The notes under the pieces are model-generated. The model worked only from the letters and a program-made list of their open reading frames with translations. It ran no database searches and was not told the origin of the DNA. Positions 56,166 to 60,063 of a stretch of DNA of 64,000 bases are shown here, piece after piece. The DNA comes from Opitutales bacterium (GTDB taxonomy: Bacteria; Verrucomicrobiota; Verrucomicrobiia; Opitutales; UBA953), in NCBI GenBank assembly GCA_017531845.1, contig JAFXKI010000007.1, positions 1 to 64,000 of the forward strand. The letters are read 5' to 3'. A program made the position numbers and the translations under genes. Position 1 is the first letter of the stretch. Each line of letters starts with the position of its first letter.

Positions 56166-57773
56166 CTAAAGCATACTTTTGAAAAAATCGGAAAGCTCGT
56201 TTTGTTCTTCATAAAAGACAAGGTGATCGCTTTCTGCAAAGTTCAAAAATTCCATGAGCCGTTTGCGCGACACTCGGCGAGATTCGGCAAGTTGAGGCGC
56301 ATAGCGCACAAATGTCGCAGAATCTTTTTGCCGCACAGCGTGCTCCAAGACTGCGCACAACAGCACCGGATTTTTCGGTTCGATTTCTTTTCGCGCCTCC
56401 AAAAAACGTAAAGCCGTTCCCGCGTGCCCGCTGTCTTCAAGCATTCGTGCGAGTGCCACGGTTTGAGAAACGCTCAGCTCTGCGCTCGTCCGGGCGGCAT
56501 GGAGAAATATTTGTCCGAGCTTCTCGTTCCCGCTTGCATAAAGTGCGACGGCGCGAATCCCCGAAAGGATTGTTTTCTTTTCGGAAAACCAACCCGGTTT
56601 TTCGCGGAAAATCTCGTCGAGTTCTGCTTTGGCTTTTTCCGCCGCCCCACAACGCAAGAGCGTTTCGAGATGAATTAAAATAAATTCCGGCAGGTTGATG
56701 AATACCTCTTTTTTTGCTTTCCGAAAACAAAGCTCCACGCTCTCCGCTTCGCTGCGATTTGCGGCAAACATGGCGAATTGTTCGAGGGCTTCGGGGGAAT
56801 TTCCGTAACGTTTGAAAAAATCCTTTTCCGCTTCGCTTTTTCGTTCCCGCGCGGAAGCAAGGTCAATTTTTGCCAATACGTCAATAATGCGCACGAGCAT
56901 TGCGGGACTATCTTTTGCCCGCGTTCGGGCAGAATCCAAAAAACGAAGTGCGATTTTGTCTTTTCCGAGGGAGTGCAAATCCTCAGCGAGCTCAATATCC
57001 GGCTCCGGAGAATCGACGCGCTTACGCAGTTTCAGCAAAATTTCCGCAGCCGCGCGAACATCACCGCGTTCCCGCGCCATGCGTGCGGACAAAAATTCCG
57101 CACTGGACGTTCCCGCGAGGGGAGCTGTGTTCAGCCGTTTTTCTGCATCCGCAAAACGCCTGGTCGCGATTTCCGCCTGCGCGGCACCCGCACAAAGCAC
57201 AAAACGATTTTGGGGAGAAATTTTCTCGTGCCCGGCAAAAGTATTTGCTGCTTCTATCAGGAGGCTGTCTTCGAAATGAGCGGCGCATTGCCGGGTAAAA
57301 AAACGCACGTATTCCGGGTGAGTGAGCTCTCGCTCATTTTCCAATCCCTCGCGCAGAAATTCCAACGCATCGCGGGAACGCCGTTGCAGAAAGAGAACAT
57401 ACGAATAAAAAATGCGCCCGTCCGGCTGGGTAGAATCCTGCATAAGTCCTTGTTTAACAAGGTTGAGCGTTTTATACGGATCTTTGCTGTGCTTCGCACA
57501 TTCAATCAGCACATTCGAGTAACGTTTGTGCTGCATCCGGCGAATATTTTCGGAAAACGGATACGCAAGCATATCGGAAAATTCCGTTTCCTCCAACTCG
57601 CGTAAATTCCGTTCCCGCAAAAACAAAAAAAGAGCCAGTACCAGATAAGCTACCGCACAAAGCACAGATAAAGCAAAAAAGATACGCCGCCAACGCGGTC
57701 GCAACGTCCATTTTCCGGATGCCGTGCGCCCGTATTCGGCAAAACCGAAAAAATCCTCGGCAGAAATTTTCAT
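56166..57773 (-). CDS. Membrane-anchored TPR-like helical repeat protein
   Basis: ATG 57771-57773 (MKISAEDFFGFAEYGR) gives 535 residues. After a basic stretch (RPRWRR) comes a membrane helix (IFFALSVLCAVAYLVLALFLF), and the remainder is alpha-helical with degenerate TPR-like repeats (RFADAEKRLNTAPLAG, KIALRFLDSARTRAK, GTALRFLEARKEIEPKNP). Function is unknown; such anchored repeat proteins serve as scaffolds in envelope or export systems. It lies 46 bases after the PEP-CTERM gene on the same strand, so a link to surface protein sorting is possible but not shown. Confidence 0.7.
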   Translation of the reverse strand: MKISAEDFFGFAEYGRTASGKWTLRPRWRRIFFALSVLCAVAYLVLALFLFLRERNLRELEETEFSDMLAYPFSENIRRMQHKRYSNVLIECAKHSKDPYKTLNLVKQGLMQDSTQPDGRIFYSYVLFLQRRSRDALEFLREGLENERELTHPEYVRFFTRQCAAHFEDSLLIEAANTFAGHEKISPQNRFVLCAGAAQAEIATRRFADAEKRLNTAPLAGTSSAEFLSARMARERGDVRAAAEILLKLRKRVDSPEPDIELAEDLHSLGKDKIALRFLDSARTRAKDSPAMLVRIIDVLAKIDLASARERKSEAEKDFFKRYGNSPEALEQFAMFAANRSEAESVELCFRKAKKEVFINLPEFILIHLETLLRCGAAEKAKAELDEIFREKPGWFSEKKTILSGIRAVALYASGNEKLGQIFLHAARTSAELSVSQTVALARMLEDSGHAGTALRFLEARKEIEPKNPVLLCAVLEHAVRQKDSATFVRYAPQLAESRRVSRKRLMEFLNFAESDHLVFYEEQNELSDFFKSML

Positions 57774-57819
57774 GCGCACGTCTTGTCGTTTTTTTTTTGC
57801 GCTTCAATCTTTCGTAATT

Positions 57820-59349
57820 TCAACGACCGAAATTACGTGTGCACCTGCGGCGGCGCGTTCCCGCAAAGGCTACGAACACCAAGCCCGTCATCAATGCAAA
57901 TGTTGCCGGCTCTGGAATTTCCGAAAGAAGAATAAGTTGCCCCTGATCGTTAATTCTCGCATTCCAAATAGAACCGCCGTTGATTGTAACCGTCGTGAAG
58001 TTTGTTGTAATGTAGTCGGAAATTTTATCGGTATCGGGAGCGTTGCTGACGGAGACTATCTGATACTTGCTTTCTCCGTCTCCGTCCGCAGAATCTGCAA
58101 TCAAATCCTCAAGCGTCTCCTCGTCCACCGTAATATTCAATGCCTGAACGTCCAAATTAGCTTTTTCGTTTCCGGATGTATATGCCTCAAAAACGACGGG
58201 AACGACGCAGACTTCGCCGTCTTGCGGTTTTTCCAGCGTTACATCTAAGGTGTGAAGGCGAATGTCCGTCGAACCCGTGAGTAAAAGTTGACCGCCGCTT
58301 GCAATAGTCGCGGAGTGAGTGTGTTGCTCTACGGCAGAAAGGTCTCGTGTGAAAATGATGTCTTTAATTTCGAGCGTATCTCCGGCGGCGATGTCGATAT
58401 CTATTTTTCCGGAAATATGCCCTTCCGTTCCCGAAGACATCAATGTCCCGCTGTGAAGCTCGTAGTGCCCGTTTGCCCAACTTCCGGTAAGGTCGAGTGT
58501 GCCGCCGCTACCGCCGGCTCCCAGTTGGATAACTGCATTTCCCGAGTGATTCTCGGTCGCTGTTTGCAAAAGAGTATATGCGAGGAGATTTCCTTCTTCA
58601 TCCTGAAGAGGTGTTCCGAGCTTTACGATCCCGCCTTCAATATTGAGACTACTGTTATTAAGGTGAGACGTCCCGATAGTGAGATTGCCGCCATCATAAA
58701 CAAAAACATCTCCGGTTCCAAGTTTACCGCTTACGACAGACACGTTCCCGAATTCGTCCGTTGTATAAATTTCATTATCTTTTTTTGCAAGAGGCGCTCC
58801 CTCAAGATTGACGGTTCCGTAAATATACGTGTCGCCGGTGTATTGATTGTCATCCGTAAGCGTTAGTGTCGCGCCGGAGCAAACCCAAAGATTCCCCTCC
58901 TCACCTCCGATCCAGCCGTCTTGAGGTGTGTTTTGCCCGCTGTTTTGCTTCGGAATAAATTGATAATTCCCTGACGCAATGACAATTTCCCCGGGAGTAA
59001 CAATACCGCCGATGTAAACGTAAACGGGTTCTGTGCCTGTTGAGTCCTCATGCTGATTAAAAACGACAACGGCTGTTGACGGATCGGAATATTTTCCTCG
59101 AATTGCTTTGTGCTCCGTTAAAGTTCCGCCGCTATTTGTGTCTTCAACCCACAGATTTTTTCCGCTGTTGTTGTTTTCACTGGTGAAAGCAACGAGAATA
59201 TCTCCGTCATGCGAAATATATTTTCCGTTTTCGTCAACGAAACCCGAATTTGTCGTTTCTTCTGCAAGCGGAGCTACGCTGTAAGCGGCAGCGTTCCCGA
59301 AGGAGACGGAAAGAAGCGAAAGTTCGCGGGAACGGTTACTGCCGGGGGA
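57820..59349 (-). CDS. PEP-CTERM surface protein, 3' part downstream of the G tract
   Basis: The minus frame is open from just after the G tract, TCC at 59349, to TGA at 57820: 509 codons. It reads SPGSNRSRELSLLSVSFGNA, then AAAYSVAPLAEETTNSGFVD, and continues with autotransporter-like beta-helix repeats (GDTYIYGTVNLEGAPL, GGNLTIGTSHLNNSSLNIEG, GKIDIDIAAGDTLEIKD). It ends with a PEP-CTERM sorting signal: EIPEPATFALMTGLVFVAFA then RRRR. Exosortase would process it. No strong start codon lies near its front, so it is either the continuation of the frame ending at 59336 or a gene with a non-standard start such as the GTG at 58743. No exosortase gene is in the window. Confidence 0.78.
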   Translation of the reverse strand, partial: SPGSNRSRELSLLSVSFGNAAAYSVAPLAEETTNSGFVDENGKYISHDGDILVAFTSENNNSGKNLWVEDTNSGGTLTEHKAIRGKYSDPSTAVVVFNQHEDSTGTEPVYVYIGGIVTPGEIVIASGNYQFIPKQNSGQNTPQDGWIGGEEGNLWVCSGATLTLTDDNQYTGDTYIYGTVNLEGAPLAKKDNEIYTTDEFGNVSVVSGKLGTGDVFVYDGGNLTIGTSHLNNSSLNIEGGIVKLGTPLQDEEGNLLAYTLLQTATENHSGNAVIQLGAGGSGGTLDLTGSWANGHYELHSGTLMSSGTEGHISGKIDIDIAAGDTLEIKDIIFTRDLSAVEQHTHSATIASGGQLLLTGSTDIRLHTLDVTLEKPQDGEVCVVPVVFEAYTSGNEKANLDVQALNITVDEETLEDLIADSADGDGESKYQIVSVSNAPDTDKISDYITTNFTTVTINGGSIWNARINDQGQLILLSEIPEPATFALMTGLVFVAFAGTRRRRCTRNFGR

Positions 59350-59836
59350 TGCCCCCCCCCCCCGAATTAAATGTTTCGAGATTGGAAACGCCGCTTTGCG
59401 TTCCCGCCTTCTTGTTTCCGTTCTGCTCTTCTTCTTTTTTTGACGAAAAAAGACGGATTATGCGCCCCGGACGCGTCTGCCCGAGCAGGAAGCGATGCCA
59501 GTCCGTGAGCGGCGCAACCGAAACGGGTGAGAATGTTCGTTTTCTCGTCTTCCAAAGGTCTTCGAGTTCTTCCTCCGCTAAAAGTCCGCTTGTAGGGACG
59601 TAGAAAAGTTTGATGCCGCCGGAACTCTTCCCGTTCCCGCCACCGGCACGCGGAATGTTTTTCATCTCGTAGGCGATCCCGCTCATTTCGTCTTCCGGAG
59701 ACGAAGCATCCGAAATCAGCGGCAACGTTCCCGTTTCAGAAAACAAGTCCCATGCTAAAGTTTCTTCTGCAAAAACCGAATCCGCGACGCAGAGAAAAAG
59801 CGCAAACACGCCGGACAGATGAAAATACTTTTTCAT
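59336..59836 (-). CDS. Secreted N-terminal part of the PEP-CTERM gene, terminated early after the G tract
   Basis: The ATG at 59834-59836 gives MKKYFHLSGVFALFLCVADS and cleavage near VFAEE, a signal peptide. The body is not recognised (GIKLFYVPTSGLLAEEELEDL, RPGRIIRLFSSKKEEE). The reading frame enters a run of twelve G on the coding strand and then stops five codons later (GGGGIPRQ, TAA). With eleven or fourteen G the frame would run straight into the PEP-CTERM part downstream, giving one protein of about 670 residues. As sequenced the product is a truncated secreted fragment. Confidence 0.65.
   Translation of the reverse strand: MKKYFHLSGVFALFLCVADSVFAEETLAWDLFSETGTLPLISDASSPEDEMSGIAYEMKNIPRAGGGNGKSSGGIKLFYVPTSGLLAEEELEDLWKTRKRTFSPVSVAPLTDWHRFLLGQTRPGRIIRLFSSKKEEEQNGNKKAGTQSGVSNLETFNSGGGGIPRQ
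59352..59363. repeat. Homopolymer of 12 C (12 G on the coding strand), candidate phase-variation switch
   Basis: Twelve C in a row at 59352-59363 sit inside the coding region, at the point where the open reading frame changes. The next-longest C runs in the window are much shorter. Slipped-strand changes of the tract would switch the frame between truncated (12) and full length (11 or 14). Confidence 0.85.
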
Positions 59837-60063
59837 CAGCTTGGCGGCACTCGGCAGAAAAAACGCACGTCCGCCTCTCCCTGCGGGGAGGGTTTTGTCA
59901 GTCGAAAGTTGCATAGAAATCGCAAAAGGTCAAAATTCTATAGATTTCAACCGGGGAGTAAAGTCGAATTTTCGACGGACAAAAACGAAATGCCGCTCCT
60001 GTAATTATACTAATTATGCGCTTAAGCGATCAGGAAGCGTTCCCGTTTTCGGACGCACCTCGC
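59837..60063. other. Intergenic region upstream of the PEP-CTERM gene
   Basis: These 227 bases lie between the ymdB-like stop and the PEP-CTERM start, both minus strand. Near 60015 GCGCTTAAGCG is a short palindrome, and one octamer is at 60038. There is no clear terminator and no coding frame that I recognise. Confidence 0.4.

Follow-up and report, generated by a model that had tools for sequence, protein, structure and literature searches.

A twelve-base G tract divides a PEP-CTERM gene of an Opitutales bacterium: a probable poly-G phase-variation switch in a genus with many such tracts

Within the 64,000-nucleotide stretch of an Opitutales genome analyzed here (hereafter "the window"), a run of twelve G divides the coding sequence of one PEP-CTERM protein between two reading frames, and the same gene in a sister species is a single open frame with a run of eight. 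An off-frame G12 here against an intact G8 gene in the sister species makes an on/off switch very probable, and we interpret the locus, with good confidence, as a poly-G contingency (i.e., phase-variable) gene controlled by a translational switch, and as a member of a phasome that extends across the genus. The best-documented cases of slipped-strand phase variation come from pathogens, in a small number of genera. If our interpretation is true, the same bet-hedging strategy is used in another phylum, with PEP-CTERM proteins among its targets, and the role of these surface proteins becomes testable through on and off tract lengths in existing metagenome reads. More generally, "broken" genes in metagenome assemblies may represent switches rather than pseudogenes, and the tract repertoire of the genus merits a separate study.

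The gene is encoded on the minus strand, where twelve C of the forward strand read as twelve G in the coding sense (Table 1). A frame with a signal peptide (ATG at 59836) runs for 157 codons up to the tract and ends five codons past it in a TAA at 59336–59338, so that the split described in the sequence-only reading of this DNA is borne out. That reading also had a second frame opening at the tract and continuing for 509 codons to a PEP-CTERM signal; the length and the signal stand (stop codon at 57820–57822), but the frame is already open from 59457, i.e., 31 codons before the tract. Searching this second frame for ATG, GTG or TTG returned none until 58743, ~202 codons after the tract, and the downstream part of the window gene thus has neither a usable start codon nor a signal peptide of its own, which means that no exported protein would come from the downstream frame alone. 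Tracts of 8, 11, and 14 G belong to the in-frame class (3n+2), and 12 G is out of frame. The earlier arithmetic, by which 11 or 14 G would join both frames, is right, and it holds for 8 as well, the length found in the sister species.

Table 1. Features of the split gene in the window, and tract-bearing genes in congeneric genomes (target genes listed are those interrupted by tracts or starting at them).
Feature	Position (window) or locus	Strand	Remark
Whole split gene: signal peptide, N-terminal region, G tract, beta-rich region, PEP-CTERM	57820..59836	-	Single 672-codon ORF in SIG76
Upstream frame at present length, truncated unsorted product (predicted)	59336..59836	-	ATG, signal peptide, 157 codons, TAA
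Signal-peptide-like N-terminus MKKYFHLSGVFALFLCVADSVFA	59768..59836	-	By inspection
G12 tract (C12 on forward strand)	59352..59363	-	G8 at same site in SIG76
Downstream frame	57820..59457	-	From 31 codons before tract to stop; first ATG/GTG/TTG at 58743
PEP-CTERM sorting signal IPEPATFALMTGLVFVAFAGTRRRR	57841..57918, approximate	-	TIGR02595 over cutoff; PF07589 under
Short self-complementary stretch, tract 3' end (GGGGG..CATCCCCC)	59343..59358, approximate	-	Weak hairpin, z -1.16
Acyl_transf_3 enzymes with tract	L099, L128, L133		Pfam
Hexapeptide transferases (Hexapep) with tract	L098, L123, L128, L129		Pfam
Wzy (O-ag_pol_Wzy) with tract	L091		Pfam
O-antigen ligase (Wzy_C) with tract	L093		Pfam
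Polysaccharide pyruvyl transferase (PS_pyruv_trans) with tract	L107		Pfam
GT2/GT8 glycosyltransferases with tract	L076, L110		Pfam
Type I specificity subunits (HsdS, Methylase_S) with tract	L118 3043, L121 3018/3567		Pfam
EcoRI-type adenine methyltransferases (EcoRI_methylase) with tract	L102 3001, L105 3029		Pfam
MmeI-type enzyme with tract	L112 3080		Pfam
PEP-CTERM genes, tract in ORF	L120, L125		
PEP-CTERM genes, tract just upstream of ORF	L084, L087, L089, L104		

Broadly speaking, runs of this length stand out in this genome. The G12 is the sole G or C run of at least seven bases in the window (52% GC), where 0.27 runs of nine G would be expected and none of 100 dinucleotide shuffles reached the observed count. 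Pattern searches over the whole genome (1.69 Mb) retrieved five runs of at least nine bases, with lengths of 9, 10, 10, 11, and 12. By our own arithmetic, composition (base frequencies ~0.26) predicts ~149 exact G7 runs genome-wide and only seven were seen, which corresponds to a strong avoidance of long G runs. Extrapolating from these seven, 0.6 runs of at least nine and 0.04 runs of at least 11 would be expected, compared to the 5 and 2 found.

The metagenome-assembled genome SIG76, from the sister species, carries the same gene (SUVQ01000004.1, locus L038, G003:C6), with 95% protein identity across the 511 downstream residues. Its tract is a G8, flanked by sequence that matches the window exactly over 60 bases upstream and over the first 20 downstream, and the gene forms a single open frame of 672 codons from the ATG (703 from the preceding stop), so that both parts seen in the window belong to one gene. 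The sequence-only reading had regarded a relative with two separate intact genes as the case that would contradict it, and the relative displays the opposite; as for tract length, which it held should be compared among relatives, this differs (8 vs. 12) with the adjoining DNA otherwise identical. In the 11-kb comparison, nothing in the gene but the tract alters the frame: ~670 codons contain no stop and no second frameshift, and the sole further indel (net 6 nt) is in frame.

Evolutionarily, the dN/dS between the window gene and its SIG76 counterpart is ~0.67 in both parts, against lower values in neighboring genes (0.055 for YmdB, 0.02 for the M24 peptidase and 0.28 for the TPR protein), a ratio that is compatible with either a diversifying surface protein or relaxed constraint. 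Synonymous divergence ranges from 0.02 to 0.06 in the split gene and the downstream TPR gene, and reaches 0.22 for both YmdB and the M24 peptidase. At the nucleotide level, the window is ~97–98.6% identical to SIG76 from ~56500 to 60000, and mostly 93–95% identical on both flanks. Judging from these alignments, the ~56500–60000 segment was probably exchanged recently between both lineages, in which case the four-base change in the tract would have been all the quicker. Just upstream of the TPR gene, a T10 homopolymer (forward strand, 57789–57798) exceeds its SIG76 counterpart by three bases, and is a further candidate for a variable tract, perhaps in a promoter or leader.

The C-terminus of the split gene (IPEPATFALMTGLVFVAFAGTRRRR, then CTRNFGR) includes a PEP motif, a transmembrane stretch and a basic cluster. 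It matches the TIGR02595 PEP_CTERM model (18.9 bits, cutoff 16), and scores 15.5 bits with Pfam PF07589, under its cutoff of 20.7. In SIG76, this signal and the N-terminal signal peptide (the latter by inspection) are found on the same joined ORF. The window's genome also includes an exosortase-like gene (G000:C5:93670-94182), which matches TIGR02602 at 63.3 bits (E 1.5e-17), below the family cutoff of 105.55. Among 79 genomes of the family, an orthologue was recovered in the two sister species only, and no homologue of the N-terminal 157 residues was found beyond them. Among congeners, clear relatives over the protein body were detected in G002 only (~35%, two copies). Both of these homologues have a C tract (C11 and C10) just upstream of the conserved part and their own signal peptide there, and a degenerate hydrophobic stretch (LSLLSVSFGNAAAYSVA) is all that occupies the matching place in the window gene; before its tract, the window gene has a different signal peptide and ~135 residues without counterpart elsewhere. 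One might speculate that the tract formerly stood in front of the gene and came to lie inside it through the gain of a new N-terminus. The AlphaFold model is beta-rich and of modest confidence (pLDDT 49.8 overall, 60–77 across much of 255–640). The best Foldseek matches were Ag43, Hap, and UpaB, which are beta-helix adhesin passengers, with TM scores of only 0.1–0.2 that are too low for a match, and the fold search is to be read as a hint of fold class only. Comparison with solved structures gave no meaningful homologue. The protein body may be a beta-solenoid and adhesin-like.

The second longest tract of the same genome, a G11 (C11:487815-487825; L016 4016-4026), splits a left-handed-helix (hexapeptide) acyltransferase, the last 46 codons of which are in another frame. 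Its neighbors are GT4-like and GT2-like glycosyltransferases and a multi-spanning polymerase/ligase-like protein (families assigned by inspection), and we consider this acyltransferase as a second candidate phase-variable gene, in a polysaccharide locus. Its closest homologue (61%, in G004) is intact, and its own G11 occupies another Gly codon, as would be expected if tracts had emerged more than once within this acyltransferase family. The other three tracts (9, 10, and 10 bases) are located between genes or at a gene 3' end.

To place the locus within its genus, we considered seven further species (G001 to G007, one genome per species), which have 6–41 tracts of at least nine bases each (5, 6, 18, 15, 8, 13, 23, and 41 for G000 to G007, G000 being the window's genome). 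The count for G007 is inflated by poly-G at contig ends (up to G54); these G50–G54 runs (L144, L148) are probably an artefact of the sequencing chemistry. Tracts of at least 11 bases were found in 8 of the 8 genomes of the genus but in few genomes of the neighboring genera g2 and g5; they are also present in genera g3 and g4. The genes affected (Table 1) lend support to the phase-variation reading, since the G11 too splits a surface-glycan gene and many tracts of the seven congeners fall in classic phase-variable classes, such as O-acetyltransferases, O-antigen and glycan genes, HsdS and DNA methyltransferases. Tract lengths vary between orthologues (10/11/10, 12/14/10, 11/9, and 9/10), and the 11/9 pair (L103/L110) differs in phase, G11 being on and G9 off. 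We regard it as fairly likely, with less confidence than for the window locus itself, that the genus has a large poly-G phasome of the Campylobacter and Neisseria kind, which would switch PEP-CTERM proteins (from inside the ORF and, in congeners, from the −35/−10 spacer) along with genes for O-acetylation, O-antigen/capsule assembly and restriction-methylation, including phasevarion-type methyltransferases.

Methyltransferases are among the poly-G contingency targets of Campylobacter and Neisseria. In the genus, the tracts of methyltransferase and specificity-subunit genes (L102, L105, L112, L118, L121) are located near the start or inside of the ORF, and these genes are candidate phasevarions in uncultured Verrucomicrobiota. 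Two of the PEP-CTERM genes come from G006: one protein has a Mac-1 (IdeS-like protease) domain, with a G9 in the ORF (L125, G006:C45), and the other is a GDSL lipase with a C9 at codon 4 (L120, G006:C33).

The mechanism we propose is that slipped-strand mispairing during replication would lead the tract to gain or lose bases. Lengths of 8, 11, or 14 (3n+2) would yield a single secreted product in which a beta-rich body follows the signal peptide and precedes a PEP-CTERM tail, the latter presumably handled by an exosortase system, and other lengths would stop translation a few codons past the tract (five at G12), leaving a short secreted fragment without sorting signal. The locus would be one of many tracts in the genus, most of whose recognizable targets are genes for surface glycans, surface proteins or DNA modification. 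From this arrangement, we infer that the length changes reversibly within populations, at some rate of switching, and that the full protein is displayed at the surface in an adhesin-like role.

Several alternative explanations have to be weighed against this switch. An assembly or sequencing error, i.e., a real tract that is in frame and a gene that is intact, seems unlikely: long G runs are prone to errors, and assemblies of this genus do contain poly-G artefacts (e.g., the G50/G54 near G007 contig ends), but the G12 lies within a 332-kb contig with unique flanks that match the sister genome, a count off by one would still exceed the sister's 8, and the G11, this genome's other tract in a coding region, is likewise out of frame. 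A miscount would also leave the switch standing, because tracts of at least 11 G are hypermutable in known systems. Only marginally less probable than such an error would be a plain pseudogene, in which the frameshift represents a fixed, one-way loss toward decay. The elevated dN/dS of both parts relative to YmdB, M24, and TPR, and a gene known in two species only, would fit such a decay. However, the gene is free of stops and of a second frameshift (its further indel being in frame), the frame change falls exactly at the hypermutable tract, and many functional genes of the genus have tracts in both phases.

Two further explanations are highly improbable. With programmed recoding, the full protein would be made with no DNA change through ribosomal frameshifting or transcriptional slippage at the G12. 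Polymerase slippage on homopolymers is known in general, and CATCCCCC follows the homopolymer, making a small hairpin possible, but the stretch folds no better than its shuffles (z −1.16), and recoding would require a fixed frame offset, when SIG76 is in the zero frame and L103 and L110 differ in phase. Programmed frameshifting is thus disfavored by an offset that is not conserved, although the hairpin at the 3' end of the tract may add some leakiness to the off state. Just as improbable are two adjacent and separate genes, one for a small secreted protein and one for a PEP-CTERM protein. The distant G002 homologues, with a signal peptide shortly after the tract where the window gene has its degenerate hydrophobic stretch, point in this direction, yet the ~202 codons lacking ATG, GTG, or TTG indicate that the downstream frame is not a separate gene, and SIG76 has one continuous ORF; on these two grounds, we rejected a two-gene organization.

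A poly-G switch, our preferred explanation, is of a kind already known from Neisseria, Campylobacter and the Akkermansia gene Amuc_1413. Campylobacter and Neisseria provide the classic examples of poly-G phase variation (PMC6321876, PMC5953494), and the same kind of switching was put forward for Akkermansia in 2011 (PMC3048395), with experimental support in 2026 for Amuc_1413, in which a 9G to 10G frameshift was associated with a loss of mucin binding (PMC13055324). Amuc_1413 belongs to a member of the same phylum, Akkermansia muciniphila, and resembles the window gene in its intragenic poly-G tract (G9) of variable length among genomes, where one additional G truncates the protein and affects a surface trait (PMC13055324, PMC3048395). 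Unlike the window gene, it encodes an exopolysaccharide export protein rather than a PEP-CTERM protein, in another genus, and its switching was demonstrated with reads and passaged strains, whereas the variation described here is known from assembled genomes. Campylobacter and Neisseria phasomes (PMC6321876, PMC5953494) likewise include on/off control by frame, varying lengths among homologues and surface targets, and Campylobacter poly-G tracts are mostly inside ORFs, as is the window tract. These genera are from phyla unrelated to the host, and no orthology was found between the target protein and theirs.

As for PEP-CTERM proteins, one group of invertible elements (inverton group 138, mostly from Akkermansia) shows an enrichment of their genes in its vicinity (PMC11892184). 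There too, PEP-CTERM proteins of a gut Verrucomicrobium may be under phase-variable control, through DNA inversion near the gene as opposed to homopolymer slippage in the ORF. The C-terminal PEP motif, hydrophobic helix and Arg cluster are shared with the PEP-CTERM/exosortase (EpsH) system (PMC1569441); here, sorting is predicted, with the exosortase-like gene of the genome matching below the family cutoff. In the open-access literature, no paper that describes PEP-CTERM genes switched by a homopolymer was found, and both this target and the tract repertoire in an uncultured lineage appear to be new.

Three of the congeneric PEP-CTERM genes with an upstream tract have their G run between −35-like and −10-like hexamers, a layout first noticed by eye and similar to known promoter-type phase variation: TTGACA, 8 bases, G9 and TAAGAT (17-base spacer) in L087 (tract 3077), TTGAAA and TATCTT separated by 5+G12 (17 bases) in L089 (tract 3019), and TTGACT and CAAAAT separated by 6+G13 (19 bases) in L104 (tract 3092). 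This placement is not supported as a rule for all tracts (27 scores of at least 8 vs. 24.8 in shuffled sequences, and 9 vs. 5.05 for scores of at least 9), and since it is not clearly above chance overall and convincing only in L087, L089 and L104, it represents a lead for these three genes only. Another layout is seen at the C10 tract of the window's genome (G000:C9:55550-55559; L014 4051-4060), which is at the 3' end of a NAD-dependent epimerase gene whose frame, at the current tract length, extends as far as a TAATG junction with the following gene. In G003 to G007, comparable arrangements of tract, Shine-Dalgarno and ATGA are found after PglD-like genes and further glycan genes, and a tract in this position could possibly act as a switch of translational coupling.
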